From positions 9,241,001-9,305,000 of the forward strand of contig NZ_CP023688.1 of the NCBI RefSeq assembly GCF_008704655.1: a stretch of 64,000 nt of DNA. The letters run 5' to 3'. Under the pieces are notes generated by a model. It had not been told where the DNA came from. It ran no database searches and worked only from the letters and a program-made list of their open reading frames with translations. Positions 19,286 through 62,275 of this stretch are shown here, in pieces. Within the stretch, counting starts at the first letter, position 1. Every line of letters begins with the position of its first letter. The DNA comes from Streptomyces rimosus. GTDB taxonomy: Bacteria; Actinomycetota; Actinomycetes; Streptomycetales; Streptomycetaceae. Both the position numbers and the translations under genes were made by a program.

Positions 19286-19361
19286 CCGCATGCCGACAGT
19301 CTCAGACCAACCACAGAGCCCCGAAAGCCGGGCAAACCCAGCGAACTCAAGGAGCCGACCG

Positions 19362-21905: not shown

Positions 21906-21939
21906 CCGGCCGCACACCCCACCACCCGAGGAGAAACTC

Positions 21940-22830
21940 TTGTTGAACCGCCGGCCCAAGCCCCTGCCCCCGGCCGGACGCGCCGTCGTCATCACCGGCG
22001 CCTCCACCGGACTCGGCAAGGAGTGCGCCCTGCGGCTGGAAGAACGCGGCTTCCGCGTCTTCGCCACGGTGCGCGAGAGGCAGGACGGTGAAAAACTGCG
22101 CGCCGAGGCATCCTCCGCACGGCTGCAGCCGGTACTCATGGACGTGACCGACGAGAAGTCGATCCAGGCGGCGGCGGCCGAAGTCGCCCGGTCCGTGGAC
22201 GAGCAGGGCGTATGGGCCGTGGTGAACAACGCCGGTTCCTGCGTCGCGGCCCCTCTGGAATGCGTGCCGCCCGAAGGGCTGCGGCGGCAGCTGGACATCA
22301 ACGTCGTCGGCTCGCTCGCCGTCACCCAGGCGTTCCTGCCCCAGCTGCGGCGCACCCGCGGACGCGTGGTCAACATCTCCTCCGGTGTGGGCAGTGTGGC
22401 CATTCCCTACCTCGGCGCCTACGCGACGGGACAGTTCGCCAAAGAGGCCATGAGCGACGCGCTCCGCCGCGAGCTGCGCCCCTTCGGCATCTCGGTCTCC
22501 GTCGTCAGGCCGGGCGCGATCGCGACCCCCATCTGGGACAAGGTCCGGGAAACCGGCGAAGACATCTTGAACCAGGCCCCCGACGCCATGGCCGACCTCT
22601 ACCGAGCCCCCTTCGAACAATTCCTGCAAATGAACGAACAACGCGCACAGTCAAGCGGCACACAGCCGCAGGACGTCGCCCGCACGGTCTTCCGCGTACT
22701 GACCACCCCGCGCCCCCGGACCCGCTACAGCGTCGGCCCCGACGCCCGGACAGCCGGCGTCCTGTCCCGGCTGCTGCCGGACACCGCCCTGGACCGTGGC
22801 CTCGGCACCGTCACCAAGAACCGCCGGTAG
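21940..22830 (+). CDS. Short-chain dehydrogenase/reductase lacking the catalytic Lys
   Basis: This 296-residue SDR has the cofactor motif GASTGLG near residue 20, NNAG, and an active-site region NISSG plus YATGQ. The classical YxxxK is YATGQ here: the lysine is replaced by glutamine, with a lysine only three residues later (QFAK). The protein may be weakly active, use another residue, or play a non-catalytic role. The TTG start at 21940 (or 21943) follows GAGGAG at 6 nt. It lies 34 nt after the FAD fusion gene and before a strong hairpin, so it ends the NRPS operon. Confidence 0.88.
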   Translation: MLNRRPKPLPPAGRAVVITGASTGLGKECALRLEERGFRVFATVRERQDGEKLRAEASSARLQPVLMDVTDEKSIQAAAAEVARSVDEQGVWAVVNNAGSCVAAPLECVPPEGLRRQLDINVVGSLAVTQAFLPQLRRTRGRVVNISSGVGSVAIPYLGAYATGQFAKEAMSDALRRELRPFGISVSVVRPGAIATPIWDKVRETGEDILNQAPDAMADLYRAPFEQFLQMNEQRAQSSGTQPQDVARTVFRVLTTPRPRTRYSVGPDARTAGVLSRLLPDTALDRGLGTVTKNRR

Positions 22831-22851
22831 CCCGCGCCGCGGGAGAAAAAG

Positions 22852-22884
22852 CCCGGCCGGGCCCAAGGTACGGGCCCGGCCGGG
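22852..22884 (+). terminator. Hairpin terminator after the NRPS operon
   Basis: A perfect 13-bp stem (22852-22864 with 22872-22884) encloses a 7-nt loop, 22 nt after the SDR stop. An A5 run precedes it. It is G/C only, as usual for actinomycete terminators, and probably ends the NRPS-FAD-SDR transcript. Confidence 0.75.
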
Positions 22885-23213
22885 AGGGGCGCTGGACTGC
22901 AATCGCCGGGCCACCGGGGCCCGTACGCGTAACGTATCTGCGCCCGCAGCGGAGAACGCCGGTGCCGGGCCTCGGACTCGCGGAGTACGAGCCGCTCCCG
23001 TCTTGATCGGGGCAGATGGCCAGGCGACGCACCCAAGTTCCGACAAGGCGGGCAACCTACTGGCCGCAGCCCCACCGCCAGGCCGCGCCGCCTTGGCAAC
23101 CGAGGTGAACGGCTGAACTCGCAGGGTGGTTGTGCGACACACCGGAGCGGCCTTCCGCTGCCCGGTGGTGTGGGTGCGCATGGTGGGCGGGTGTCGCTCT
23201 GTGGAGGTGCGTG

Positions 23214-24107
23214 GTGCGTCGAAGTGTTCTGGTGACGGGTGCGACGAGTGGTGTGGGTCTGGGGGTGGCGCTGCGGCTGGCCGGGGCCGGGTTCGACGTT
23301 TTCGCCACGGCGCGTGACGAGCCGAAGGCCGAGAAGCTTCGGGCTGTGGCGGCCGAGTGTGCTGTCGGGCTGCGGACGGTGCTGCTGGATGTGGCGGATG
23401 CCGATTCCTGCCGCAGAGCGTGTGCGGAGGTCGCGGAGGCCACCGGAGGCGGACCGTGGGCCTTGGTGAACAACGCCGGTGTCCCGCTGGTGGGGGCGGT
23501 GGAGGACCTTGAGGACGCGGCGGTGCGGCAGCTGCTGGAAGTCAATGTGGTGGGAGCCGCGCGCATGGCCCGGCTGGTGCTGCCGGGGATGCGTGAGCGC
23601 GGGGAGGGACGCATCGTGAACGTCTCGTCGCTCGCGGGCCGTATCGCGGCTCCCGGTATGGGCTGGTACTGCGCGGGCAAGGCGGCGTTGGGGGCCTTGA
23701 ACGATGCGCTGAGGATGGAGGCCGGGCCCGGCGGGGTGCGGGTCGCGATCGTCGAGGCGGGCGCGTACGCGAGTGCCATTCAGGGCCGGGCTGCCGATGG
23801 TCTGGCGGCGCTGGCGGGCCGGCCGACGTTGTTCGGTGACATGTACCGGGTGGCGGAGGCGGCGCTGCGGGAGTCCGGTACGCGGCTGCCGAGCGCGGAG
23901 CCGGTCGTATCGGCTGTCTGCCGGGCACTCATCGCGCGTCGGCCGCGCCACCGGTATGTGGTCGGCAGGCAGGCGAAGGCGGGGCTGCTCGCTGACGTGC
24001 TGGTCCCGGTCCGTGTGAAAGACCACTTCAAGCGGGCGGCGATGGGTGCTCCCGGTGCCCACCCGGCGGTCGAGTACGCGGCGCGGCGCTGGTGCACGCC
24101 GTGGTGA
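23214..24107 (+). CDS. Short-chain dehydrogenase/reductase
   Basis: This 297-residue SDR has TGATSGVG at the N-terminus, NNAG, NVSSLAG and a normal YCAGK catalytic pair. It is related in layout to the SDR upstream but keeps all catalytic residues, and could be the ketoreductase serving the discrete ketosynthase/ACP set or could act on the NRPS product. The GTG at 23214 is chosen over 23211 because GGAGG is 6 nt upstream. It is preceded by about 330 nt without a gene (after the hairpin at 22852) and ends only 3 nt from the convergent diiron oxygenase gene, so the two mRNAs must overlap at their 3' ends. Confidence 0.9.
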   Translation: MRRSVLVTGATSGVGLGVALRLAGAGFDVFATARDEPKAEKLRAVAAECAVGLRTVLLDVADADSCRRACAEVAEATGGGPWALVNNAGVPLVGAVEDLEDAAVRQLLEVNVVGAARMARLVLPGMRERGEGRIVNVSSLAGRIAAPGMGWYCAGKAALGALNDALRMEAGPGGVRVAIVEAGAYASAIQGRAADGLAALAGRPTLFGDMYRVAEAALRESGTRLPSAEPVVSAVCRALIARRPRHRYVVGRQAKAGLLADVLVPVRVKDHFKRAAMGAPGAHPAVEYAARRWCTPW

Positions 24108-24110
24108 CGG

Positions 24111-25013
24111 TCAGGCCAGTAGGCCGGAGCGGCGCCACAGGTGGTGCTGGGGGCGCCTGATCAGGTCCACTTCGGTGAGGAAGGCGATCAGCTTTTCCCC
24201 GCACCAGAGCATCGTGGCGCGGTGGTGGAGGTTGTGGCGTGCCTGGCGGCGGGCCTCGCCGGGGGTGAGCCCGAGGTCGCCGTACCGGTCGGGGCGCAGG
24301 AGCGGCGGGACGGTGTGGGAGGCGACCAGGGCGGTCAGGAGGCGGTGGCGGGCCAGCCGGCTCCGGGAGGCGTGCGTCACGGCTTCGCGCAGTTCGGCGC
24401 GGGCGAAGCTGACGTGGCGTGCTTCTTCGGCCACGTGCAGACGGCACACCGACCGCACCAGGGGCTGGACGCGGTCGTCCTGGGCGGCCTCCCGCTGGAG
24501 CCGGTCGAGCACTTCTTCGATGATCAGGGCGCTGGTGAAAGTGGTGATGTCCTGGAACGCGGCAGCGGCCGGCGGAAAGGGGAGCCGGACGTGCGCCGGG
24601 ACGCGATGGGCCGGGCAGCCGAGTGTGGCCAGCAGCCGCCCGAACATGGTGATGTGCCGGGTCTCGTCGCCCATTTCCGTCAGCGCGTAGAAGGCGCGCG
24701 CGTCCAGGATGTCACGGTTCATCAGGTGGCGGGTGAACATGCGGATGATGGCCAGCTCGAACCAGTGCCCCATCTGGGCCATGTGGGCTGCTTCGTGGCG
24801 GGAGAGTTCGAGGCGCTGCCGGTGGTCCATGCGCTCCCACAGGGGGGTGCCGTAGAGCGCGAGCCGCTCGGGCGGCCAGAACCAGGCACCGTCCAGCAGG
24901 GGGGTGTCCCAGTCGATGTCCGTCGCGGGATCGTGGGAGCGGGCCGCGGAGGCGTCCAGCAGACGCTGAGCGGTGGTGTGGGGGCTGTGGGGCCGCAGAG
25001 CCTGGTCGGTCAT
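24111..25013 (-). CDS. AurF-type diiron N-oxygenase family protein
   Basis: This 300-residue all-helical protein carries all seven ligand positions of the AurF/CmlI diiron oxygenase family: Glu74 (RHEAAH), Glu117 and His120 (DETRH), Glu166 or Glu167 (IIEEVLD), and His193-Glu197-His200 (HVAEEARH), with the same H-x3-E-x2-H spacing as AurF. Known members oxidise amino groups to N-hydroxy, nitroso or nitro groups. No aminoaryl supply genes are nearby, so its substrate here is unclear and it may act on the peptide product. Its ATG overlaps the stop of the upstream MMPL gene (TGATG), indicating translational coupling. Confidence 0.85.
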   Translation of the reverse strand: MTDQALRPHSPHTTAQRLLDASAARSHDPATDIDWDTPLLDGAWFWPPERLALYGTPLWERMDHRQRLELSRHEAAHMAQMGHWFELAIIRMFTRHLMNRDILDARAFYALTEMGDETRHITMFGRLLATLGCPAHRVPAHVRLPFPPAAAAFQDITTFTSALIIEEVLDRLQREAAQDDRVQPLVRSVCRLHVAEEARHVSFARAELREAVTHASRSRLARHRLLTALVASHTVPPLLRPDRYGDLGLTPGEARRQARHNLHHRATMLWCGEKLIAFLTEVDLIRRPQHHLWRRSGLLA

Positions 25014-27265
25014 CAGGGGTCACTCCTGGGGTGTTTCGTACCGGCCGGCCCGGCGAGGGGCCGACGGTGCGGCAGGGGCTGCGGGACGGGGGTCGACGGG
25101 CGGGGCCAGGGGCTCCACCAGGCGGCGCGTCCGGCCAGGGCCAGGACGGCGGGGGCGAGCAGCCCGCGGACGACGGTGGCGTCGAGCAGGACCGCGAGGG
25201 CGAGGCCGACACCGATGATCTTCAGCATCACCAGGTCCGACGTGGCCAGCGCGGCCATGACGACGGCCAGGGTGAGCGCGGCCCAGGTGAACAGGCGCGC
25301 GGTGCGGTCCAGGCCCCGGACCACGGCGGTGGCGGCGTCGGGGGCCCGTTCGTACTCCTCGCAGACGCGGGCGAGCAGAAAGATCTCGTAGTCCATGGAC
25401 AGGCCGAAGGCGATGCCGAAGATGAGCGCCGGCATGAGCACGTCCGTGGTGCCGGTGACGGGAAAGCCGCCCAGGAGGCCGGCCAGATGGCCTTCCTGAA
25501 AGACGAAGACCAGGGCGCCGAAACTGGCTGCCAGGCTCAGGGCGTTGAGCAGCAGCGCCGTGAGAGCCATGACCGGCCGTCGGGTCAGTAGCAGGGTCAG
25601 GCACAGGAGCGTCGCCCCTGCCAGCAACAGGCACCAGGGCAGGCGGGAGAGGAGCGCTCGCTGGACATCGTCGAGGACGGCGCCGGGCCCGCCGACGAGG
25701 ACGGGCGCGGGAGCGGGCAGCTCGCGCAAGGTCCGGGCGAGGTCGCGGTTGGCGGGGGAGTAGGGCTCGCCGGAGGTGGCGACCGCCAGCCAGACGCCGC
25801 GGGGCGAGGCGAAGGCGGATGCCGCGGTGCCCGCCGGAGGCGTGTGGACGCCGCGGGCATAGGAGCCGGTGGCCGTTTCCACCCGGTCCACGCTTTTTTG
25901 GAGGGAGACGCGCCGGGCGTAGGCGTCGACCTCGGCGGCGTGCTGCCGGGGGTCGAAGTGCGGCAGGACCACGGTCGCCGGAGTGATCACGGCGCCGAGT
26001 CGGTAGTCGTGGCGCAGCACCGTACCGGCTTTGGCGACGGTGGAGGAGGCAGGCTGGACGCGATCGTCGAAGAGACCGATCTGCACGCGGGTGAAAGGGG
26101 TGGCGAACACCAGCAGCACCGCGGTGACGCTGACAGCCACCAGTCCGGGCCGTCGTTGGACGGCCCGGGCCATGCGCCCCCACCTTCCCAGCCCGGCGGC
26201 CCGGCTCCCGGAGTGAGGGCCGGTACGGATACGGCGGCGCCCTCGCGTGAGGACGCCCGGCCGGTGGACGCGGGGCCCCAGGACCGTCAGGAGAGCCGGG
26301 AGCACGACCAGGCCGGCCAGGGCCGCGAAGGCGGTGACCGCGATGCCGCCGTAGGCGATGGAGCGCAGGATGGTGTGCGGGAAGACGAGCAGCGAGGCCA
26401 GCGACAGGATGACCGTGCCCGCGGAGAACAGCACGGCCCGGCCCGCGGTCCGCAGTGCCGTGCGCAGGGCGGTGCCGGGTTCGGCGCCGGCCGCGGCCTC
26501 TTCCTGGTAGCGGGCGAGCAGAAAGAGGCTGTAGTCGACGGCGAGGGCGAACCCGAGCGCCGAGGAGATGTTGGTCGCGCTCACCGCCACCTCGGTGCAG
26601 AAGGTGAGCAGCCGCAGGACGGCCTGGGCTCCCAGTACGGCCAGCACACCGACGGCAACGGGCAGGAGGGCGGCCAACGCCGAGCCGAACACCACGAGCA
26701 GCAGCAGCGCGGTCAGCGGCAAGGCCAGCAGTTCCGCGCGGATCTGGTCCCGCCCGGCCAGCCGCAGTGCCTCGGCGCGGGAGGCCGCCTCGCCGGTGAC
26801 CTCGACCTGCAACGGGCCATGGCGGCCGGCCATCCGCGGCATCAGCCGTCCGGCCGCCGCCGTCGCCTCCTGCTCGCGTCCGTGCAGCCGCACCAGTACC
26901 AGGGCGCTGCGCCGGTCCGCCGAGCGCAGCGACGGCGCCTTGGCCTGCCAGTAGGAGACCACCTGGGCGACGGACCGGTCGGCGCTCAGCCGCCGTACCA
27001 GCCGGTCACCCTCGGCCGCCGCGGCGCGGTCTTCGACCGACCGGGCGGCGCCGGACACGCGGGTGACGAGTACGAGGTGGGGCGGGGCGGAGGCGAAACC
27101 TTCGCGCAGCAGCCGGTCGGCACGGGCTGCCTCGGTCGCCGCCGGCACGATCCCTCCCGGCGACAGCCGCCCGTCCACCGCTGCCCCGAACCAGGCGCAG
27201 GTCGCCGCCAGTCCTGCGGCCAGCACCAGAATGACCCACGGAACGCGGCACCGGGGGCTGCGCAT
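25013..27265 (-). CDS. MMPL/RND-family exporter
   Basis: The 750-residue protein has the twofold RND layout: one N-terminal helix, a large extracytoplasmic loop, about five helices, then the same again. The diagnostic FALAVDYSLFLLARYQEE (helix 4 region) and GLSMDYEIFLLARVCEEYE (helix 10 region) carry the Asp-Tyr pairs of MMPL proteins. Actinobacterial MMPL proteins export lipids and natural products; ActII-3 of the actinorhodin cluster is one. It probably exports the cluster product. It is coupled to the diiron oxygenase gene by a TGATG overlap and is divergent from the KAS III gene. Confidence 0.93.
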   Translation of the reverse strand: MRSPRCRVPWVILVLAAGLAATCAWFGAAVDGRLSPGGIVPAATEAARADRLLREGFASAPPHLVLVTRVSGAARSVEDRAAAAEGDRLVRRLSADRSVAQVVSYWQAKAPSLRSADRRSALVLVRLHGREQEATAAAGRLMPRMAGRHGPLQVEVTGEAASRAEALRLAGRDQIRAELLALPLTALLLLVVFGSALAALLPVAVGVLAVLGAQAVLRLLTFCTEVAVSATNISSALGFALAVDYSLFLLARYQEEAAAGAEPGTALRTALRTAGRAVLFSAGTVILSLASLLVFPHTILRSIAYGGIAVTAFAALAGLVVLPALLTVLGPRVHRPGVLTRGRRRIRTGPHSGSRAAGLGRWGRMARAVQRRPGLVAVSVTAVLLVFATPFTRVQIGLFDDRVQPASSTVAKAGTVLRHDYRLGAVITPATVVLPHFDPRQHAAEVDAYARRVSLQKSVDRVETATGSYARGVHTPPAGTAASAFASPRGVWLAVATSGEPYSPANRDLARTLRELPAPAPVLVGGPGAVLDDVQRALLSRLPWCLLLAGATLLCLTLLLTRRPVMALTALLLNALSLAASFGALVFVFQEGHLAGLLGGFPVTGTTDVLMPALIFGIAFGLSMDYEIFLLARVCEEYERAPDAATAVVRGLDRTARLFTWAALTLAVVMAALATSDLVMLKIIGVGLALAVLLDATVVRGLLAPAVLALAGRAAWWSPWPRPSTPVPQPLPHRRPLAGPAGTKHPRSDP

Positions 27266-27457
27266 CGTCGTGACTCACCCCTTCGCGGTACGGGCTTCCG
27301 CACTCCCTTGTCGCCACCATGTGTAGACAGGGAGCGGGCCCGGCAACACATCGCCACCTCTTCAGGCGAACGCCCGGTAGCGCCAAACGCGGGCACTTAA
27401 ACACATCAACGGCGTGGGAAGCCGTGGCGCCCGGCGGCGCCGCCCTAGCGTGAGGCC
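27266..27457. promoter_or_regulatory. Divergent promoter region
   Basis: This 192-bp gap separates the MMPL operon (minus) from the KAS III-ACP-KAS II operon (plus) and must contain both promoters. GTGAGG lies just before the KAS III ATG. No clear operator dyad was recognised. Confidence 0.55.
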
Positions 27458-28501
27458 ATGAGCGACCTTCGGGCCTGCCTGGCGGGCGCCACCACGTACC
27501 TGCCCGAGCGCTGGGTCAGCATGGGCGAACGGGAGGCCCAGATCGCGGCCGCCAGCGGCGGCTTCACCCCGCCTCCCGGGCTGATCACCCAGCTGACCGG
27601 GGTGACGGGCGTCCATCTGATCGACGACGACCAGCAGGCGTCCGATCTGGCGGCGGGCGCCGCCCGCAAGCTCCTGGCCGACCAGGGCGTCCGGCCCGCC
27701 GACATCGACCTGATGATTTTCGCGGCGGCCAGCCAGGACATGATCGAGCCGGCGACGTCCCACGTCGTGGCCGCCAAACTCGCCCTGACCTGCCCGGTCT
27801 TCGACGTGAAGAACGCCTGCAACAGTGTGCTCAACGCCATGGAGATCACGCAGGCTCTGATCGCGTCCGGGCGGTACCGCACCATTCTGATCACCTGCGG
27901 CGAGGCGCCCTCCGTCGCCGCCCAGTTGCGCATCCCCGACGCGGCGGCGTTCGCGCGCGCACTGCCTGCCTACGGTTTCTCCGACGCCGGCGCCGCCCTC
28001 CTGTGGAGAGCCCAGGAGACTCCTCGCCCACTGCCGCCCCGGGGCATCCTCGGCTGCCGCTTCGCCGCCGACTCCGCGGCTTGGCCCTCGGCGACCGTGC
28101 TGCACGGCGGCATCGCCTCCCTGCGCCACCGCTCGGGCCCGGAAGCAGCCGCTTGTTTCCGCATGGACAGCGTCCGGATGCGCGACAGCCTGCGAGCCCT
28201 CGGCCGCGCCCACCTGAACCGCGCACTGGACGAACTCGGCCTGACCTTCGACGACTTCGCCTTCATCGGCGCCCACCAGGTCGCCTTGGCCGACCTCGAC
28301 GAACTGTGCGGGCCGGAGATCGGGGTCCCCCGCGACAAACTGATCATCACCCTCCCCGAGCACGGCAACGTCGCCTCCGCCTCCCTTCCCCTGCAACTCA
28401 CCCGCGCCCTCGAAACCGGCCGGGCCGGCCCCGGCGACCTCGTCGCCCTCATCGGTCTGGCCGCCGGCAGCAGTGCCGGCCTGATGACGCTGCGGCTGTG
28501 A
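27458..28501 (+). CDS. Beta-ketoacyl-ACP synthase III-like protein
   Basis: This 347-residue thiolase-fold protein has the FabH-type triad Cys121 (VKNACNS), His273 (GAHQVA) and Asn304 (EHGNVAS). The usual HQAN is HQVA, so it is a divergent FabH relative of the kind found in secondary metabolism, where members start chains or transfer acyl groups. With the ACP 40 nt downstream and a KAS II it could build the acyl chain that the NRPS starter C domain attaches to serine. The ATG at 27458 follows GTGAGG. Confidence 0.9.
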   Translation: MSDLRACLAGATTYLPERWVSMGEREAQIAAASGGFTPPPGLITQLTGVTGVHLIDDDQQASDLAAGAARKLLADQGVRPADIDLMIFAAASQDMIEPATSHVVAAKLALTCPVFDVKNACNSVLNAMEITQALIASGRYRTILITCGEAPSVAAQLRIPDAAAFARALPAYGFSDAGAALLWRAQETPRPLPPRGILGCRFAADSAAWPSATVLHGGIASLRHRSGPEAAACFRMDSVRMRDSLRALGRAHLNRALDELGLTFDDFAFIGAHQVALADLDELCGPEIGVPRDKLIITLPEHGNVASASLPLQLTRALETGRAGPGDLVALIGLAAGSSAGLMTLRL

Positions 28502-51883: not shown

Positions 51884-52120
51884 CGGCTCACCTCCGCTCG
51901 CGCGAAGAGCGCTGGGCCAGGGGTTAAGTAATCCCAGAGCGCCGGTTCACCTCTGCTCGCGCGGTACCGCCTGGCAACAGCCCCGCGCAGGTGGGGCCCA
52001 GTAGACGGTCTCCCCGAGGCCACCGTGAGCCGGGGATCAACCCTGCGCGGGCGGGGACCACTCCCGGGAGTCTCCCAGTGCTGGCAGACGGCGGGTCCAA
52101 TCCCGCGCGCGGAGAGCGCC
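51884..52120. CRISPR. Degenerate CRISPR-type repeat cluster
   Basis: Four 29-nt elements are recognisable at 51884-51912, 51943-51971, 52033-52061 and 52092-52120. They share the form of actinobacterial type I-E repeats: a short lead, an imperfect G/C palindrome and a GRAGAGC or GGGGACC end. Start spacing is 59, 90 and 59 nt, so about 30-nt spacers in two steps, and a further repeat-like palindrome sits near 51973. The copies differ at many positions and no cas gene is in the window, so this is a decayed or relic array. Confidence 0.5.
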
Positions 52121-52387
52121 CTTCGCGAACCGCGACGTTAGAAGGGCTTGCCGTTACGTGATGTGCGAACTCCTGTTGCATGAGGGTCATTTGCCGGGCG
52201 AGGGATGATGCGCCGGAGCGCAGTGTGCTGTGTGACGGCGCTGGTCGAGCCCGGGCTGTCCCGGTACGGCGTTGCGTCGTGACGTGATGATCTTCCGTCG
52301 GCGGGTGGGGCGTGGCAGCCTCTGGCTGTTCCCGCTCTTCGCGTGGTGTCGGCGTGGAAGGGTGGGTGTGCGTTAGGGGAGGGGATA

Positions 52388-52945
52388 GTGAAGCCGGAGG
52401 TGTGGGTCGCCGGTTTTTCGGCGGCTGTGGCGTTGGGGGCGGCTGCCCTGTCGGCCTGGGCCACTCGTGGGGCCAGCAGTAAGGAGAGTTTCGTTCTGGC
52501 GCGGTCGTTGTACTGCGATCTGACGTCGGAGGGCACGTCGGCGGCCAGGAGTGCTCTGGAGTTCTACTGGCGTGGTGAGCGGCGCAGCGTGGAGCAGACC
52601 CGGCAGGTACTTGATCACTACTTTGCTCTGCTGTGGTGCTTCGAAAGGATCCGTGCGGGACGGGAGAGTCTGGTGCGGCAGCGGCGCCTGAATGGCACCG
52701 GTCCTGCTCTGAGGTATCTGGACGACATGATCCGGTGGCATGTCGAGGAATGGGCCAGACGATGGGCACGGCTGCGATGTCTCATCCAGCAGCACATCGG
52801 GGAACTGGACGACCACCACTCCATCCGCTCGTTCTGCCACCTCGCGCAAGGCGTGGTCACAGAGCCCGACGCCCGCCAGGCCGTGACAGACCTCCTCAAC
52901 GACATCGAGGCAGAAGCCACCCGCCAGCACCGCATCAACCCATGA
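52388..52945 (+). CDS. Hypothetical membrane-anchored protein
   Basis: The 185-residue protein has one N-terminal hydrophobic helix (VWVAGFSAAVALGAAALSAW, about residues 5-24) followed by a long helical cytosolic part rich in Arg and Leu. No family is recognised. The GTG at 52388 follows GGAGGGG. The stop is directly followed by a CRISPR-type repeat, and a degenerate array lies upstream, so the gene sits inside the repeat-rich zone. Confidence 0.6.
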   Translation: MKPEVWVAGFSAAVALGAAALSAWATRGASSKESFVLARSLYCDLTSEGTSAARSALEFYWRGERRSVEQTRQVLDHYFALLWCFERIRAGRESLVRQRRLNGTGPALRYLDDMIRWHVEEWARRWARLRCLIQQHIGELDDHHSIRSFCHLAQGVVTEPDARQAVTDLLNDIEAEATRQHRINP

Positions 52946-52947
52946 CC

Positions 52948-52976
52948 GGGTACACCCCCGTCTGCGCGGAGAGCAC
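52948..52976. repeat. Solitary CRISPR-type repeat
   Basis: A 29-nt element ending in GCGCGGAGAGCAC matches the repeats at 53090 and 59511 at its right end. Another palindromic, less similar element is at about 53037-53065. Confidence 0.5.
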
Positions 52977-53089
52977 CCGACCTCGACCAGGTGCCGGCCA
53001 ATGCTTCCCGGGGCGCGGTCGGCGGGGCGGGTTCGTATCGTGTTCCCCGCACATGCGGGGGCGCGACGGCGTGCATCACTCTTCCGTGT

Positions 53090-53118
53090 CGGCTCACCTC
53101 CGCCTGCACGGAGAGCAC
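53090..53118. repeat. CRISPR-type repeat left of the nucleotide operon
   Basis: The 29-nt element shares GGCTCACCTCCGC and GGAGAGCAC with the copy at 59511-59539 (25 of 29 positions identical). It lies 451 nt before the radical SAM start. Confidence 0.6.
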
Positions 53119-53569: not shown

Positions 53570-55093
53570 ATGGCGGACGTTTGTGTGCTGCTGGACTGTT
53601 ACACCGTGGAGCCGAGCGGTCTGGGTGTGCCGCCTTATGTGTCGACGTATGTGCGGGCGGCCTGGTCGGCTCTGCGGCGGGCCCGTCCGGGTGCGGAGGT
53701 GCGTTATCTGACGATCGATGATGTGCGCTGGTGTCTGGCGGGCGGGAAGCCGGAGGTGGCGCCGCCGGTGAGCGATCCGCGTACCTATTCGGCGACCGTG
53801 AACCGCGAGCGGGCCATTGCGCTGCTGCACGACGCTGAGGCGGTGGTGGTCGTCGCCGGGGACAAGGTGCCGTCGGTGCACCTGCACGCCGTCAACGGGA
53901 GCCTGGAGGAGATCTGCCGGGCGCTGGCCTGTGTGCGTGGGCGCCGGTATCTGCTGGGGCCGCTGGCGACCTACGCGCGCATCAGTCCGTACGAGTTCGC
54001 GGGCCTGTTCGATGCGGTGCATACGCACAGCGTGACCTCGGGTGACCTGGTGGTCGGCAGCCGGGTGCCGACCGACTACGGCCGGCTGCGCGCCGAGCGG
54101 GGTTCCTTCGCCGGGCTGGTCGAGCAGATGTGCTGGCGGCCGATTGCTGAGCTGGAGCTCTACCGGGGCTGTACCCGTCGGGTGTTCTGCGATTTCTGCA
54201 ACGAGCCGGGCAAAGCCCCGGTGGTCGCCTTCCGCAGCGTCGAGGACGTCCTGGAGGAGGCGCAGCAGCTGTATGCCGCCGGGGTGCGGCACTTCCGTCT
54301 GGGGCAGCAGACCTGTTTTTTCTCCTACCGCAACCGTGACGAGGAGGCGATCAGGGCGTTGCTTTCGGGGTTCTGGGAGCGGTGCCCGCAGTCGGTGGTG
54401 CTGCACATCGACAACGCCGATCCGCTGGCGGTGGCTTCGCCCGTCGGTGCTCGCATCGCCCGTCTGGTCGCGGAGTGGTGCACGGAGGGCAACTGTGCGC
54501 CGATGGGTATTGAGTCCTTTGACCGGCATGTGATCGAGCAGAACCATCTCACCTGTACGCCCGAGGTCCTGCTGCGGGCGGTCGCGCATGTCAACGAGGC
54601 GGGGGCCGGGCGGGGCCCGGGCGGTCTGCCGAAACTGCTGCCGGGCCTGAATCTGGTCTACGGGTTGCCCGGTGAGAGTCATGGCACGCACATTGCCAAC
54701 CTCACCTGGCTCGGCCGGATCCTGGAGGCGGGGTATCTGTGCCACCGCACCAATGTGCGCCAGGTGCGGGCCTACCCGGGTACCCCACTGGCCGCCCTGC
54801 CCAGGCGCGAGCAGGTGCCCTCGGCGGAGCACTTCACCTCCTGGAAGGCCGATATCGACCACGGCTGGGACCGGCCGATGAAGGAGCGGGTCTACCCGCT
54901 CGGGCTGAAGATTCCGGGTCTGCAGTCCTACTTCGTCGGCCGCAACGGCACGTGGTGGCGGCGCCTGGGCTCGTACTCGATCCAGGTTGTCGAAGAGCAT
55001 GTGGTCACGCCGGTCGGTACGGCCGGGGACCTGACCGTCACCGGCCATGCCCCCCGCATGCTCTACGGGCGGCGTCGTGCGGCCGCGCGCTGA
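53570..55093 (+). CDS. Radical SAM enzyme with unusual cluster motif
   Basis: This 507-residue protein has an N-terminal alpha/beta region (about 1-165; MADVCVLLDCYTVEPSGLGV onward) that could be a cobalamin-binding-like or degenerate Rossmann domain, then a radical SAM domain whose cluster motif is RGCTRRVFCDFC (Cys201, Cys207, Cys210). That is C-x5-C-x2-C rather than C-x3-C-x2-C, with the aromatic residue before the last Cys kept. NLVYGLPGES (about 450 codons into the gene's radical SAM barrel) is typical of the family. The ATG at 53570 follows AAGGGG. As first gene of the operon it may carry out the radical chemistry that defines the pathway. Confidence 0.85.
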   Translation: MADVCVLLDCYTVEPSGLGVPPYVSTYVRAAWSALRRARPGAEVRYLTIDDVRWCLAGGKPEVAPPVSDPRTYSATVNRERAIALLHDAEAVVVVAGDKVPSVHLHAVNGSLEEICRALACVRGRRYLLGPLATYARISPYEFAGLFDAVHTHSVTSGDLVVGSRVPTDYGRLRAERGSFAGLVEQMCWRPIAELELYRGCTRRVFCDFCNEPGKAPVVAFRSVEDVLEEAQQLYAAGVRHFRLGQQTCFFSYRNRDEEAIRALLSGFWERCPQSVVLHIDNADPLAVASPVGARIARLVAEWCTEGNCAPMGIESFDRHVIEQNHLTCTPEVLLRAVAHVNEAGAGRGPGGLPKLLPGLNLVYGLPGESHGTHIANLTWLGRILEAGYLCHRTNVRQVRAYPGTPLAALPRREQVPSAEHFTSWKADIDHGWDRPMKERVYPLGLKIPGLQSYFVGRNGTWWRRLGSYSIQVVEEHVVTPVGTAGDLTVTGHAPRMLYGRRRAAAR

Positions 55094-55811
55094 CGATGTG
55101 CTCGGACTGCTCGCCTCGTGGGACGGGCAGGCCGAGCGCACCGTGCGGATCGGGATGCTGCTGCCGTGGGCGAACGTGGCGGTGGAAGACGAACTGCCGC
55201 GCCTGGGCCTGTCGCACACCGTCTTTCACTACACGCGTCTGGTGCCGGCCTCGCGCACCACCGCGGTCGACGCCGCGTTCTGGCACGGGCTGCGGTCGGC
55301 GGCCGCCGGCGGGCTCGATGCGCTGTCCCCGGTGCCGCTGGACGCCGTGTTCCTGGCGTGCACCTCGGCCGGCTTCCCGACCGGCCCCGCGCCGCCTGTC
55401 CTGCCGCCGGGTGTTCGGACCGCCTTCGACGCCCTGACCGGTGTGCTCACCCACCTCGGCGTCCGGCGCATCGTGCTGGCCACGCCGTATCCGCAGGAGG
55501 TCACCGCTGCCGAGGCGGCCGCCCTGGCCGCCTACGGCATCGAGACCACCGCCCACGCGAGCCTGGACCTGGCCGACGGCTACCCCACGGTGACAGCGGA
55601 CCAGATCCGCACGCTCGTGCGACATCTCCCCTCTGTGGCATTGCGCACCGCCGATGCCGTGGTGCTCTCGTGCACCGGCTGGCACACTCTGCCCGTCCTG
55701 GCCGAACTGCAGCAGGCCCTCGGGGTGCCGGTCTTCTCCTCCACCCTCGCCATGGCCCTGTATGCCGCCCGCCTCGCGATGGGAGCCCCCTGTGAGCACC
55801 AGCCCAAGTGA
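55077..55811 (+). CDS. Asp/Glu racemase-superfamily protein (maleate isomerase-like)
   Basis: This protein of about 244 residues has the two-cysteine layout of the Asp/Glu racemase, maleate isomerase and arylmalonate decarboxylase superfamily: Cys95 in FLACTSAGF and Cys199 in VLSCTGWHTLP, plus RIGMLLPWANVAVEDEL at the N-terminus, as in maleate isomerases. It would act on a small carboxylate. The GTG at 55077 overlaps the radical SAM gene by 17 nt; an ATG at 55047 is an alternative. Overlap indicates one transcript. Confidence 0.8.
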   Translation: MRPRADDVLGLLASWDGQAERTVRIGMLLPWANVAVEDELPRLGLSHTVFHYTRLVPASRTTAVDAAFWHGLRSAAAGGLDALSPVPLDAVFLACTSAGFPTGPAPPVLPPGVRTAFDALTGVLTHLGVRRIVLATPYPQEVTAAEAAALAAYGIETTAHASLDLADGYPTVTADQIRTLVRHLPSVALRTADAVVLSCTGWHTLPVLAELQQALGVPVFSSTLAMALYAARLAMGAPCEHQPK

Positions 55812-56583
55812 CAGAGTCCTGGCGCTCGTGGCACGCGCCGCGGTCCTCGCCGACGTGCGCCGGGAGGTCGAGGCCAACCATGACGACAACCGGTGGTGGC
55901 CGACCGCCGTCACCGACTTCCGGGTGCGGATGCTCGCGGCCGGCTGGTCCAGCCGCGTCTCCTACCGCATGATCGACACCTACGCGCGCGTCATCCGCGA
56001 CGCCGCGGCTCTCGGCTTCGACGCGCTGGCCGACAGCACCGACGCCGAAGTCGCCTCGCTGGTCGCCCCGCTCGGCCTGCCCCGCGCCCGCATCGCCTAC
56101 CTGCGCTCCCTGAGCGAAGTGACCCAAGGGTGGGCCAAGGACGGCATCGACCCGGCCACCGGCCCCCTCGACGCCGATGCGATGATCCGTTCCTTTGCCG
56201 AGCAGGTCCACGGCGCCTCGTACAAGGTCGCCCAGTGCGCGCTGCTGTACGCTCGCGGCTACCACTGCGGCATCATCCCCGTCGACTCCGGCATGGTCAG
56301 CAAACTGGCCCCCGCCCTCGGCCTGGCCCTGCCGCCCGGCCCTGCGGCCCACGAACAAATGCGCCACCACCTCGAAGCCGCCGTCCGTTCCCGGCCATCG
56401 GCTTACCGCGCCCTGGCCGCCCGCCACGCCCTCACCCTCCCCGCCGACGCCGCCCCGACCTGGTGGACCCACCTCGTGCTCATCTACTTCAAACGCCTCT
56501 ACCTCAACAGACCCTCACCCCGCCTGTGCCCCCAACGCCCCCTGTGCCCCTCAGTTCTCGACTGCACCCACCTGCGTCCCTGA
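55792..56583 (+). CDS. HhH-GPD (DNA glycosylase-fold) protein
   Basis: The 263-residue all-helical protein resembles endonuclease III-type glycosylases: GLPRARIAYLRSL, then VHGASYKVAQCALLYARGYH and IIPVDSGMVSKLAPALGL. Lys145 and Asp165 align with the catalytic Lys and Asp of endonuclease III. The C-terminal Cys246-x5-Cys252-x5-Cys258 only partly matches its 4Fe-4S site. It could be a base-removing enzyme or, as with the glycosylase-fold pyrophosphorylases described for phages with hypermodified bases, a base-modifying enzyme. The GTG at 55792 follows GGGAG and overlaps the racemase gene. Confidence 0.7.
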   Translation: MSTSPSDRVLALVARAAVLADVRREVEANHDDNRWWPTAVTDFRVRMLAAGWSSRVSYRMIDTYARVIRDAAALGFDALADSTDAEVASLVAPLGLPRARIAYLRSLSEVTQGWAKDGIDPATGPLDADAMIRSFAEQVHGASYKVAQCALLYARGYHCGIIPVDSGMVSKLAPALGLALPPGPAAHEQMRHHLEAAVRSRPSAYRALAARHALTLPADAAPTWWTHLVLIYFKRLYLNRPSPRLCPQRPLCPSVLDCTHLRP

Positions 56584-56605
56584 CCTCTGCCTGCCGGGAG
56601 CGGCC

Positions 56606-57424
56606 ATGCAGCGCATATCGGTCATCGGCAACATCTCCCGCGACCACATCCGCTATGCCGACGGACACAGCGGCCATTACCTCGGCGGAGCTGCCCTGCA
56701 CATCGCGCTTGCCGCCGCCCGTGCCGGCGCCCACGCCGCACCCGTCGCCGTGATCGGCGACGACTTGGCCCTCCTCACCCGCGAACCGGATCTCGCCTGC
56801 CTGGACTGGTCCGCCCTGCGCCACGCCACGGGCAACTCCGCGGCCTTCGCGATGGTCTACGACACCCAGGGCGCGGTGCGCTGCACCAGCGCGACCTACG
56901 GCGTCTCTCACCAGCTCACCGCACACGCCCTGGGCCACCTTGCCCGGCATCCCGGCGACTTCTGCCACCTGTGCTGCCGCCGCCCCCTGCACGTGCCGGC
57001 CGTCCTCAGCCGCCTGGCCACCGTCGGTGCCCGCTTCAGCGCCGACTTCTTCCTGCCCAGCGCCCACTCCTTGCTCGCCGCGGCCGCGTCCTGGCTCCCC
57101 GCCGCCGACTGGATTTTCGTCAACGCCGCCGAATACCGGCTCCTGGCCCGCACCGTCGACCCGGCCACGCTGAACGCGGTGATCGTCACCGACGGGCCCC
57201 GCCCGGCGCGCCTGCTGCACCACGCCCGGCCCGTCGCGGAAGCCTGCCCACCCACGACGAAGGCCGTCGAACTGACCGGCGCGGGCGACACCCTCGCCGG
57301 CACCTTCCTGGCCCGTCGCTTGGCGGGCGCCACCCCCGCAGCCGCCCTCGAAGCCGCGGTCACCGCGGCCGCGCACCACACCACCACCCGCCCGCGGCCC
57401 CTGCCCGCCCCGCACAGCCCCTGA
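56606..57424 (+). CDS. PfkB-family carbohydrate/nucleoside kinase
   Basis: The 272-residue protein has the PfkB N-terminal motif (GNISRDHIRYADG...GGAALHIALAAARAG) and the C-terminal GAGDTLAGTF (Asp228 catalytic). The family phosphorylates sugars and nucleosides such as ribose and adenosine. A short kinase of this type beside a deoxyribosyltransferase suggests a nucleoside or (deoxy)ribose substrate. It starts 22 nt after the HhH-GPD gene, with GGGAG before the ATG. Confidence 0.85.
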   Translation: MQRISVIGNISRDHIRYADGHSGHYLGGAALHIALAAARAGAHAAPVAVIGDDLALLTREPDLACLDWSALRHATGNSAAFAMVYDTQGAVRCTSATYGVSHQLTAHALGHLARHPGDFCHLCCRRPLHVPAVLSRLATVGARFSADFFLPSAHSLLAAAASWLPAADWIFVNAAEYRLLARTVDPATLNAVIVTDGPRPARLLHHARPVAEACPPTTKAVELTGAGDTLAGTFLARRLAGATPAAALEAAVTAAAHHTTTRPRPLPAPHSP

Positions 57425-57449
57425 CGTCTCACCCGAAGGGAGCCGCCCG

Positions 57450-58394
57450 GTGTTCTACATCGCCCACCGTCTCTTCGCCGCCCACGACCGCGCCCTGGCC
57501 GCACATCTCGCCCACCATCTGGCGGCCAAGACCGGCGCCGACGCCGTCTTCCTGCCCTTCTGCGACACCGACGAAGAAACCTTGCAAGCACCCGTCAAAG
57601 GCCTTCGCCTGTTCGAACTCGACCGTCGGCGCCTGCGCACCCTCACCGGCATGATCGCCATCCTGCACGGGCCCAGCCTGGATGACGGCGTTTGCATGGA
57701 AATCGGCTATGCCGCTGCCCTCGGCGTACCCGTCATCGTCATGACCACCGACTTCCAGACCTACTCGCATCACCCGAACAGCCCCCGATGGGAGTTCACC
57801 GACCCGCTGATCGAAACGATCACGCGCCGCGTCGTGCGCGTCCCTCGCCTCGGTCCCCTTCCGCCGGCCGACCACTCCGCAGACCGGTTCGCCACCTTTG
57901 CCTCCCGCAATCACCGCCAGGCGGACGAAGTCGTCGCGCGCAGCGTCGACGCGCTTCTCGACGCGGCCACCGGGGATCGGGCAGTTCCTCATACGGCACC
58001 TGCCCGTGCGGGCAGCGTCTTCTTCGAGCCCTCCCCGTACACACCCGTGCCGGAGCAGGTGGCCGAAGCTGTACGAACCGCTGGATACGACCTGAGGGCG
58101 GCTCGGCGCTTCGCGGCCGCTGGTACCGCTGTGGCAGCCCGCACCGACTGGGAGGAAGCCCGGCACGCCGAGACACTGATCGCTGACGTTTCCGGGCCCG
58201 AGGCACCGCCCGGCGCCGCCGCCCTCATCGGCGCAGCCGCCGCCCAGGGCCGCCGCATCGGCGTCTACCTGCCACACCCCGTCTTCACCCACGCTCCCGG
58301 CCGGGAACCGAACTGGCGCAACCTGATGATCCAGTACGCGGCCGGGCACCACCTCAGCACTCCCGACGACCTCACGTCGTGGCTGCACCGGTGA
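57450..58394 (+). CDS. Double nucleoside 2-deoxyribosyltransferase-like protein
   Basis: This 314-residue protein carries a deoxyribosyltransferase domain in residues 1 to about 150: FYIAHRLFAAHDR and IAILHGPSLDDGVCMEIGYA, with the nucleophile Glu84 in place. Residues about 190-314 look like a second, degenerate copy (VFFEPSPYTPVPEQVAEAV, TLIADVSGPEAPPGAAALI). These enzymes swap bases on deoxyribose or hydrolyse the bond. The GTG at 57450 follows GGGAG. Its stop overlaps the next start (GTGA). Confidence 0.82.
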   Translation: MFYIAHRLFAAHDRALAAHLAHHLAAKTGADAVFLPFCDTDEETLQAPVKGLRLFELDRRRLRTLTGMIAILHGPSLDDGVCMEIGYAAALGVPVIVMTTDFQTYSHHPNSPRWEFTDPLIETITRRVVRVPRLGPLPPADHSADRFATFASRNHRQADEVVARSVDALLDAATGDRAVPHTAPARAGSVFFEPSPYTPVPEQVAEAVRTAGYDLRAARRFAAAGTAVAARTDWEEARHAETLIADVSGPEAPPGAAALIGAAAAQGRRIGVYLPHPVFTHAPGREPNWRNLMIQYAAGHHLSTPDDLTSWLHR

Positions 58395-58891
58395 ACGCCG
58401 AACAGGACCTCGCCTCCTATCGCACCCTCGCCATAGAAGGATGCGACGGAGCCGGCAAGAGCACCCTGGCCCGACGCCTGGCCACCCAGCACGGATTCAC
58501 GCTCGTCCACTGCCCGCCGACCCCGGACCACCTGGAACTGACCCACCACTACCGCACGCTGCTGGACCGGCCCGGACGCCTGATCCTGGACCGCTGCTTC
58601 CTCAGCGAACTTGTTTACGGCCCGCTTTTCCGCGGCCGCTCACGGCTGACCTGGCAGCAAATCCTCGTACTCGCCGCCCACGTCACCCAGCGCGACGGGC
58701 TCTTCGTCCACATCACCGCCACCCCGCCGACCATACGCGCGCGACTCATGGCCCGAGACGGCCACGCCCCCTCCACGGCCCAGATCACCGCCCTGACCTG
58801 CGGCTACCACCGCACCTTCGCGATGCTCGCCGCCTACGCGCCCGTCCTGACCATCGACACCACTACCAGGCCCTCCGGCCCGGCCGGATGA
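58391..58891 (+). CDS. Thymidylate-kinase-like P-loop kinase
   Basis: The 166-residue protein has Walker A GCDGAGKST (residues 17-25), a DRCFLSELVYG segment and the RxxxRDGH lid region of dTMP-kinase-like enzymes. It is shorter than standard thymidylate kinases (about 210 residues), like phage-type nucleotide kinases. It is coupled to the deoxyribosyltransferase by a GTGA overlap, so it probably phosphorylates the nucleotide made by the operon. Confidence 0.82.
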   Translation: MNAEQDLASYRTLAIEGCDGAGKSTLARRLATQHGFTLVHCPPTPDHLELTHHYRTLLDRPGRLILDRCFLSELVYGPLFRGRSRLTWQQILVLAAHVTQRDGLFVHITATPPTIRARLMARDGHAPSTAQITALTCGYHRTFAMLAAYAPVLTIDTTTRPSGPAG

Positions 58892-58974
58892 CAGAGGCCC
58901 GACTTCCAGCGCCCGCACCGTGGCCATCGCTAGGCTCCGGCGGCACCAGCACCCCACCGTGCCCCGGAGGAACC

Positions 58975-59511
58975 GTGGACATCCGATCCGCACAGAAACA
59001 CACCTGGGAAAACAAGATCGAGAAGGGGTTCAACACCACCGACGTACCGCTGGAGGTCGCCCTGCTCATCAGTGAAGTCGGCGAAGCCTTCACCGCCTGG
59101 CGCAAGAACCTCCCCGACTTCGGGGAAGAACTGGCCGACATCACCCTCTACACCACCGCCCTCGCCCAGATGAACGGCATCGACCTGCAGGCCGAGATCG
59201 AACGAAAAGACTCTGGCGGGCATAGCGCTCCCGAGGCGGCCACCAGCGTTCCTCTGGAGTTCGGCCTCCTCACCAAAAAGATCGGCGACGCCCTCACCGC
59301 CTGGCGCGAAAACCGGGCCGTTCTCGGCGGGGAACTGGCCGACATCGCCCTCCGCACCTCGGCCCTCGCCCAGATGAACGGCCGCGACCTGTACGCCGAA
59401 CTCCAGCACAAAGTCACCAAGAACCGCGGGCGCGTCTACACCCGAAACGAACACGGAGTCCCCATCCGAGTTCGCGAACACACACCACCGCCTCAGAGCA
59501 CTGAGGGGTAA
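58975..59511 (+). CDS. Tandem MazG-like NTP pyrophosphohydrolase
   Basis: The 178-residue protein has a MazG-type repeat in residues 1-78 (EVGE at 34-37, EELAD at 51-55) and a second copy in 92-147 (LTAWRENRAVLGGELADIAL) in which the first acidic pair is replaced (KKIGD). One active and one scaffold unit is likely. MazG enzymes remove non-canonical NTPs. The GTG at 58975 follows GGAGG; an ATG at 58888 would overlap the kinase and add a Pro-rich tail. The stop codon's last base is the first base of a CRISPR-type repeat. Confidence 0.8.
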   Translation: MDIRSAQKHTWENKIEKGFNTTDVPLEVALLISEVGEAFTAWRKNLPDFGEELADITLYTTALAQMNGIDLQAEIERKDSGGHSAPEAATSVPLEFGLLTKKIGDALTAWRENRAVLGGELADIALRTSALAQMNGRDLYAELQHKVTKNRGRVYTRNEHGVPIRVREHTPPPQSTEG

Positions 59512-59539
59512 GGCTCACCTCCGCACGCGCGGAGAGCAC
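59511..59539. repeat. CRISPR-type repeat right of the nucleotide operon
   Basis: This 29-nt element starts at the last base of the MazG stop codon and matches the copy at 53090-53118 at 25 of 29 positions. The two bracket the seven-gene operon. Confidence 0.65.
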
Positions 59540-61441: not shown

Positions 61442-62275
61442 TCAGTTGTCGAAGTCGGTGGAGCGGGTGAGCTTTTCCCAGGAGTGGAGTTCGGTGCGGG
61501 CACGGTCGAGGTGGTCGATGATCGCGTCGGTGGCGTCGTTGCCCAGTGGCAGACGCAGCGGCGGTTCGTCGGCGTCCAGCGCGGTGAGGATGGCGGCCGC
61601 GGCCTTGGCCGGGTCCCCGGGCTCCTGGCCGGCTCCGCCCGGCAGGCCGGAACGGACGGGGCCTACGGTGTCCTCGTAGGCGTTCAGGGCCGCGGACTGC
61701 TGCAAGGTTCCGGTGCCGGCGAAGCCGGTGCGGAACGCGCCAGGCTCGACGATCAGCACCCGGATGCCGTGCGGGGCGACCTCGGCGGCCAGCGCCTCGG
61801 AGAGACCCTCCAGGGCGAACTTGGTGGCGCAGTAGGCACCGACCCCGGCGAAGGCGAACCGCCCTCCCATGCTCGTCAGTTGCACGATGGCGCCTGAAGA
61901 CCGGCGGCGCATGTGCGGCAGTACGGCCCGGGTGAGCGCGGCCGGGCCGAAGAAGTGCAGGTCCATCAGGTCCCGCAGTTCGGCGTCGGTGGTCTCCTCG
62001 ACGGCCCCCACCATGCCCCGTCCGGCGTTGTTGACCAGGACGTCGATGCGGCCGTGCCGGGCCACCACGCCGTCGACCGCGTCTTGCATGCCGGCGACGT
62101 CGGTGACGTCCAGCGGCAGCGCCTCGACCTGGTCCGGGTGCGTGGCGACCAGGTCGTCGAGCGGCGCGGTGCGGCGGGCGGCGGCTACCACGATGTCGCC
62201 CGCCGCCACCGCCGCTTCGGTGATCGCCCGACCGAACCCGCTGCTCGCCCCGGTGACCAGCCATACCTTGTTCAT
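61442..62275 (-). CDS. Short-chain dehydrogenase/reductase
   Basis: The 277-residue classical SDR has TGASSGFG, NNAG, an active site with TSMGG and YCATK, and the C-terminal LIVEPGAFRTGF of the oxidoreductase subgroup. The ATG at 62275 follows AAGGAG. It lies upstream of the MFS exporter on the same strand, and 101 nt from the divergent LysR start. Confidence 0.92.
   Translation of the reverse strand: MNKVWLVTGASSGFGRAITEAAVAAGDIVVAAARRTAPLDDLVATHPDQVEALPLDVTDVAGMQDAVDGVVARHGRIDVLVNNAGRGMVGAVEETTDAELRDLMDLHFFGPAALTRAVLPHMRRRSSGAIVQLTSMGGRFAFAGVGAYCATKFALEGLSEALAAEVAPHGIRVLIVEPGAFRTGFAGTGTLQQSAALNAYEDTVGPVRSGLPGGAGQEPGDPAKAAAAILTALDADEPPLRLPLGNDATDAIIDHLDRARTELHSWEKLTRSTDFDN

Follow-up and report, generated by a model that had tools for sequence, protein, structure and literature searches.

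In phage thymidine hypermodification, an HhH-GPD-fold transferase takes part in the chemistry, together with a radical S-adenosylmethionine (SAM) enzyme in phage M6. A DNA kinase specific to this pathway phosphorylates 5-hydroxymethyldeoxyuridine within the DNA, and further conversion follows (PMC6449724, PMC7653180). Here we analyze a seven-gene operon in a 64,000-nucleotide stretch of the Streptomyces rimosus genome (GCF_008704655.1, contig NZ_CP023688.1, positions 9,241,001-9,305,000), which is called the window. The operon encodes the P-loop kinase, HhH-GPD, and radical SAM folds, the same trio as in phage hypermodification (phages M6, ViI, and phi W-14, with the radical SAM enzyme in M6). 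Unlike these phage systems, it adds a deoxyribosyltransferase, a PfkB kinase, a MazG protein, and an isomerase. The seven genes are a real, single inherited unit that is patchy and mobile, and the fusion of HhH and kinase relatives in other bacteria, together with the MiaB/RimO fold of the radical SAM enzyme, suggests nucleic-acid (probably DNA) base chemistry by the trio that resembles the phage pathway.

Results

Architecture of the operon

The seven genes lie on one strand (53570-59511, +), and neighbors overlap by 47, 20, 16, and 4 bp or sit at most 25 bp apart (gaps of 22 and 25 bp). All seven open reading frames (ORFs) are open, without internal stops, and start with ATG or GTG. The first gene encodes a 507-residue radical SAM enzyme (53570..55093, +; PF04055, E 2e-8) with a MiaB/RimO-like fold over its whole length. 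It is followed by a 254-residue enzyme resembling maleate isomerase and arylmalonate decarboxylase (AMDase) (55047..55811, +; PF17645, E 4e-15), a 263-residue HhH-GPD-fold protein with a GTG start, recognized by a weak HhH-GPD match and by structure (55792..56583, +), and a 272-residue PfkB-family kinase with an invariant GAGD catalytic motif (56606..57424, +; PfkB, E 8e-20). The last three products are a 314-residue nucleoside 2-deoxyribosyltransferase-like protein with two halves (57450..58394, +; PF05014, E 3e-18), a 170-residue YorR/phage thymidylate-kinase-like P-loop (deoxy)nucleoside/nucleotide kinase (58379..58891, +), and a tandem MazG-like pyrophosphohydrolase (58888..59511, +; PF12643, E 6e-8; alternative GTG start at 58975). 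The original prediction, made from the window's letters and ORFs, had described seven clustered same-strand genes at exactly these coordinates, and the matches confirm its radical SAM, racemase-like (here AMDase/maleate isomerase-like), HhH-GPD (by glycosylase fold), and PfkB identities. No transporter, either exporter or importer, was detected among the seven proteins by Pfam. The operon ends ~61 kb from the contig end of the 9.36-Mb single-contig genome. Proteins labeled S. rimosus are 96% (HhH) and 92% (deoxyribosyltransferase) identical to those of the operon.

The seven genes are inherited together

Related loci were taken as matches of the radical SAM protein in genome contigs, and each of the 27 was searched by tblastn with all seven proteins. 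The hosts are Streptomyces, Actinacidiphila, Kitasatospora, Thermoactinospora, Nonomuraea, Sinosporangium, and several metagenome-assembled genomes (MAGs), one titled Solirubrobacterales. All seven genes occur together in 23 of the 27 loci, which argues that the clustering is more than chance. The order radical SAM, isomerase-like, HhH, PfkB, deoxyribosyltransferase, kinase is identical in 23/27 loci, and mazG comes next, sharing the strand of the other six genes in 18 of the 23 complete loci and lying on the opposite strand in five (L022-L026). Three loci are truncated by a contig end, with the earlier genes present in order (L016, L017, L027), and L031 is a remnant that consists of a broken radical SAM gene alone. 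The PfkB match of L030 is shortened.

The distribution was measured in 394 Streptomycetaceae genomes using thresholds of E <= 1e-50 for radical SAM and E <= 1e-20 for HhH. The radical SAM gene is present in 15 genomes and the HhH gene in 14. Each of these 14 also has the radical SAM gene, always within 0.8 kb of HhH. The fifteenth radical SAM genome (G443) has radical SAM fragments only, and in G163 the radical SAM gene is in two pieces beside the HhH gene. The deoxyribosyltransferase family is represented by one copy in each of the 13 other HhH carriers and is missing from G443. Among the 100 nearest relatives, the genomes with a full-length deoxyribosyltransferase are exactly the three whose HhH gene is credible; a fourth has a 62-residue deoxyribosyltransferase fragment. 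One HhH-search match, in G062, was dropped as spurious (E 8e-4, with three stops, in a 3.4-kb locus that lacks the other operon genes).

Pairwise distances for six operon proteins correlate with r = 0.84-0.95 in the 19 sequence sets having all six, and for every protein pair all 2000 permutations fell short of the observed value. The HhH gene occurs in 2/396 genomes of a phylum-wide sample, one of which is the window's own genome. A full-length radical SAM relative is present in four Streptomyces plasmid records, and the three that were fetched are linear plasmids, each with all seven genes. In 6/27 loci the operon has an integrase gene no more than 2.6 kb away, and in a seventh the distance is 8.3 kb. 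The check for scattering of the genes in relatives thus returned nearly absolute linkage for the genes tested, and the operon idea survived.

The HhH protein and its fusion to the kinase

The HhH protein matches Pfam HhH-GPD with E 0.0018, which is below the Pfam cut-off, and its DNA-glycosylase fold was recognized by structure. It has the HhH motif and catalytic Asp of the HhH-GPD DNA glycosylases. The bifunctional members of this superfamily use a Lys, and EndoIII has the iron-sulfur motif CX6CX2CX5C, which is missing from some superfamily members. Asp165 is conserved in 24/24 and Lys145 in 22/24 sequences, a pair that we take to be the EndoIII catalytic residues. The EndoIII-type motif was not found in the operon protein, and the tail has the pattern CX5CX5CX[H/C] in 24/24 sequences. 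This tail is perhaps a metal-cluster-like variant of the EndoIII-type motif that would still bind metal.

Sequence comparison places the HhH and operon P-loop kinase families in single fused proteins in other bacteria. G745, a different actinobacterial genome, encodes a distant relative of the HhH protein, 39% identical over 233 residues. This protein was used as a query and returned 45 proteins, of which 13 were inspected, including all five of at least 380 aa. Four of these (P0128, P0131, P0153, and P0155; 438-452 aa) have a C-terminal P-loop kinase behind the HhH domain, and the fifth (P0165) has an extension without a family assignment. Profile comparison assigns the HhH half to the operon HhH family (40% identical, E 3e-75) and the kinase half to the operon kinase family (E 3e-31, probability 99.9%), and the operon and fusion kinases have the signature DR.F.SE.VYG...RG.SR in common. 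Genes that are neighbors in one lineage and a single fused gene in another can be expected to have a joint function, and HhH and kinase would be such a pair. In G745 (L051:352-2198), a DruA (DUF4338) gene (PADLOC E 7e-131) precedes the HhH gene by ~24 bp, and the two may form a two-gene system. The sole match in the class of G745 (40 genomes) is G745 itself.

The P-loop kinase and its phage relatives

The nearest solved protein to the P-loop kinase, predicted to be dTMP-kinase-like, is YorR of a Bacillus prophage. In each of the two phage regions inspected, the kinase relative adjoins a nucleotide pyrophosphohydrolase gene; the pyrophosphohydrolase is MazG-like in one region, and in the other it lies near thymidylate synthase and dCMP deaminase genes. 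A dUTPase is the kinase neighbor in many of the Microbacterium phages among those listed. The operon thus resembles a phage deoxynucleotide-pool module, in which a related kinase sits beside a MazG-like or other pyrophosphohydrolase, but relatives of the radical SAM, HhH, deoxyribosyltransferase, and PfkB proteins were not found among the ORFs of the two phage regions.

A phage origin of the operon was considered and rejected. HhH relatives were not found in IMG/VR contigs or phage records, and a radical SAM relative was not found in IMG/VR, the phage records not having been searched with this protein; the IMG/VR results rest on short peptide patterns. The HhH model gave weak matches only in the BFVD structure library, and the HhH protein had no PHROG match.

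The radical SAM enzyme

The radical SAM cluster motif is CX5CX2C (C201, C207, and C210), and five further cysteines (249, 304, 309, 329, and 391) are invariant in 23/23 sequences. The structure model resembles MiaB, which acts on nucleic acid, and RimO, and has a TRAM-like end as in MiaB. The match of the model to spore photoproduct lyase is weak. The MiaB and RimO methylthiotransferases have three N-terminal cluster cysteines besides the SAM cluster, and this conserved set was not found in the 23 sequences of the operon enzyme. N-terminal C10 and C55 are each conserved in 22/23 sequences and C121 in 20/23; as judged by eye, C55 and C121 do not occupy the corresponding MiaB/RimO positions.

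An archaeal radical SAM protein from Natronorubrum (P0121) is 31% identical over ~93% of the operon enzyme. Its motif is CX3CX2C versus CX5CX2C in the operon enzyme, the five extra invariant cysteines are missing, and the other six operon genes were not found within its 25-kb region. The gene (L041:11977-13704) is located on an 828-kb plasmid and is followed by a TRAM-domain gene, and the protein has a weak C-terminal HhH-motif match. This archaeal radical SAM protein with a C-terminal HhH motif presumably belongs to COG1031. We know of no function for this radical SAM/HhH family, and no paper on COG1031 or aGPT-PPase turned up in the literature search.

Isomerase-like enzyme, deoxyribosyltransferase, and MazG

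Two cysteines of the isomerase-like enzyme, in ACTS and SCTG motifs, are invariant in 23/23 sequences. The deoxyribosyltransferase-like protein has the PF05014 domain and catalytic-type Glu of the nucleoside 2-deoxyribosyltransferases, and this activity is predicted for it. The Glu (E84) is in the first half and is invariant in 21/21 sequences. Of the double deoxyribosyltransferase of the original prediction, only the first half reaches PF05014; the second half is conserved (...PPGAALLIGAA...GREPNWRNLMIQY) and by eye resembles a degenerate second copy without Glu at the E84 place. PF15891 was also matched by two deoxyribosyltransferase relatives among the 120 listed.

The MazG domain is duplicated in the window (59036-59209 and 59240-59413), and the copies are 76% identical over 174 bp. 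The second has lost acidic residues (EVGE to KIGD and GEELAD to GGELAD). The predicted tandem MazG is therefore present at the window's copy, and the duplication was not seen in the other loci read, which have a single MazG domain.

Genomic surroundings

CRISPR-like repeats flank the operon. Two are upstream at 51886-51912 and 53092-53118 (-; stretch 51885..53118), with weaker copies near 51943 and 52949, and a third, GTGCTCTCCGCGCGTGCGGAGGTGAGC, is at 59513-59539 (-) and begins two bases past the mazG stop. Sites with at most three mismatches to the repeat occur in the 9.36-Mb genome at just 51886, 53092, and 59513. Cas1 had no match in the window's genome. The operon may have been inserted into a decayed CRISPR array.

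A divergent helix-turn-helix/tetratricopeptide repeat (HTH/TPR) regulator gene is immediately upstream of the radical SAM gene in 13/27 loci, and a conserved short-chain dehydrogenase/reductase (SDR) gene is near the operon in 12/27. Neither was found at the window's copy. The window does have an SDR gene (61442-62275), which was not counted as the conserved SDR despite co-clustering because the two are at most 34% identical; the SDR copy of L005 is 65-89% identical to the copies of other loci.

A second conserved cluster is found no more than 10 kb from the operon in 4/27 loci (L006, L009, L015, and L023, with L045-L048), and occurs elsewhere in other genomes (also L049 and L050). It encodes a ThyA-like protein, a NodU/CmcH-type carbamoyltransferase, a glycosyltransferase, a small P-loop protein (by eye), a methyltransferase, a phosphotransferase, a histidine phosphatase, an epimerase, and in some cases a CMP-KDO-synthetase-like protein. 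The ThyA-like gene is present in 28/394 family genomes and in only 2/14 operon carriers, and the cluster was therefore set aside as an independent neighbor.

The flank scan covered 119/221 flanking ORFs of the related loci and had no background set. No defense system stands out in the scanned flanks, where PADLOC matches are scattered, and a defense island was rejected. Among the 25 PADLOC families listed of 48, mad2 occurs in three members and every other family in a single one, including a cytosine methylase, a type IIG enzyme, and PbeA. The 25 Pfam families listed of 115 look ordinary. Within the window, a 2429-residue ORF (nonribosomal peptide synthetase-like by eye) is followed by oxidoreductase-like and other enzyme-like ORFs (11996-28501; ORF translations); this region is probably a natural-product cluster with no apparent relation to the operon.

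Discussion

Our tentative first choice is that this mobile accessory operon has at its core a base-chemistry machine that acts on nucleic acid, most likely DNA. Base modification is ranked first because the kinase/HhH unit and the MiaB-like radical SAM enzyme recall phage thymidine hypermodification. The radical SAM enzyme, with its TRAM-like end as in MiaB, would functionalize a base, and the P-loop kinase would phosphorylate the new group or a modified nucleotide. The HhH-GPD enzyme would hold the flipped base through its Lys/Asp pair and either exchange the activated group or cleave the base. The maleate-isomerase-like enzyme may prepare a small dicarboxylate-type donor, and the deoxyribosyltransferase, PfkB kinase, and MazG could serve the free pool by making, recycling, or destroying a modified (deoxy)nucleotide. 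In a more doubtful extension of base modification, the pathway puts a hypermodified base into the host's own DNA and brings a private nucleotide-recycling set with it. It would then be a separately arisen chromosomal counterpart of phage hypermodification, and the HhH-kinase fusions would be its widespread core.

The same enzymes can be read as acting on free nucleotides. Somewhat unlikely is a salvage or clearance pathway in which the kinase makes the 5'-monophosphate of an unusual nucleoside, a QNG1-like HhH enzyme and the deoxyribosyltransferase split base from sugar, MazG and PfkB respectively supply the monophosphate from the triphosphate and phosphorylate the sugar, and the freed base goes to the radical SAM and isomerase-like enzymes for processing. 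QNG1/DUF2419, of queuosine salvage, has the HhH fold in common and would fit this kinase-then-glycosylase logic, but PF10343 had no match in the HhH protein and none in the window's genome. The seven proteins include no exporter or importer, a point against both a secreted antibiotic and plain uptake and salvage, and the product is probably retained in the cell. An intracellular modified nucleotide (a signal, cofactor, or antiviral analogue) would suit this, and the enzymes for nucleoside assembly and phosphorylation, the patchy and mobile operon, and the pairing of a distant HhH relative with the defense-associated DruA are in its favor. HhH and MazG would then provide self-protection, MazG by clearing the triphosphate from the pool and HhH by excising the base that enters DNA. 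The HhH-kinase fusion would be odd if the purpose were merely self-protection, the scanned flanks are not clearly defense genes, and among the seven proteins PADLOC matched the kinase alone, weakly, with a best E of 3e-8 over 30 P-loop residues. We consider this explanation somewhat unlikely; it and salvage are both serious competitors of base modification.

Repair dedicated to one type of DNA lesion or to a modified phage base, with the radical SAM enzyme reversing it, HhH excising it, and the others cleaning the pool, is improbable. An HhH fold with an EndoIII-type Lys/Asp pair, the ability of radical SAM enzymes such as spore photoproduct lyase to repair DNA, and MazG as a house-cleaning enzyme are compatible with repair, but the operon is found in 14/394 family genomes, unlike housekeeping repair, and it is not evident what PfkB, the deoxyribosyltransferase, and the isomerase would do in such a system. 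An ordinary nucleoside antibiotic cluster is very improbable. The Streptomyces host and the regulator and SDR genes at about half of the loci speak for one, but the gene content is fixed from Streptomyces to the Solirubrobacterales MAG, and tailoring variation was not seen. No description of the gene combination, as an antibiotic cluster or other pathway, was found in the open-access full-text literature (subscription journals were largely outside its scope), in agreement with the original prediction. Of the three readings proposed there, a modified base gains most, through the radical SAM model and the HhH-kinase fusions. A nucleoside antibiotic for secretion loses ground because no transporter was detected, and defense retains one hint in the DruA pair.

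Should the core prove to act on DNA, a hypermodified base that can be passed on by transfer would exist in Streptomyces-type bacteria, and HhH-kinase fusions would mark the same chemistry elsewhere. If it acts on free nucleotides, the operon would be a new intracellular nucleotide pathway. The sharply bounded gene set, natural presence and absence, plasmid copies, and clean fusion partner make this a directly testable question. The operon also offers the first functional setting for relatives of the archaeal radical SAM/HhH family.

No strong match to known anti-phage systems was found with the operon proteins in PADLOC, and the set matches none of them. We could not assign the genes to a known type of pathway, and what appears new is the gene set. 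The M6 search covered 34 of the 59.4 kb of an unannotated record and gave no clear sequence homology to the operon. The kinase profile gave a best score of 12.8 bits (E 8e-4) against the M6 ORFs, to a 187-residue P-loop protein, and the HhH profile gave nothing. The likeness of fold is at the DNA-glycosylase level only. The 5-hydroxymethyl pyrimidine synthase (hydroxymethylase) of phage hypermodification is not among the seven genes. For these two reasons, we regard the operon as a system that may work like phage hypermodification and not as one that is phage hypermodification.

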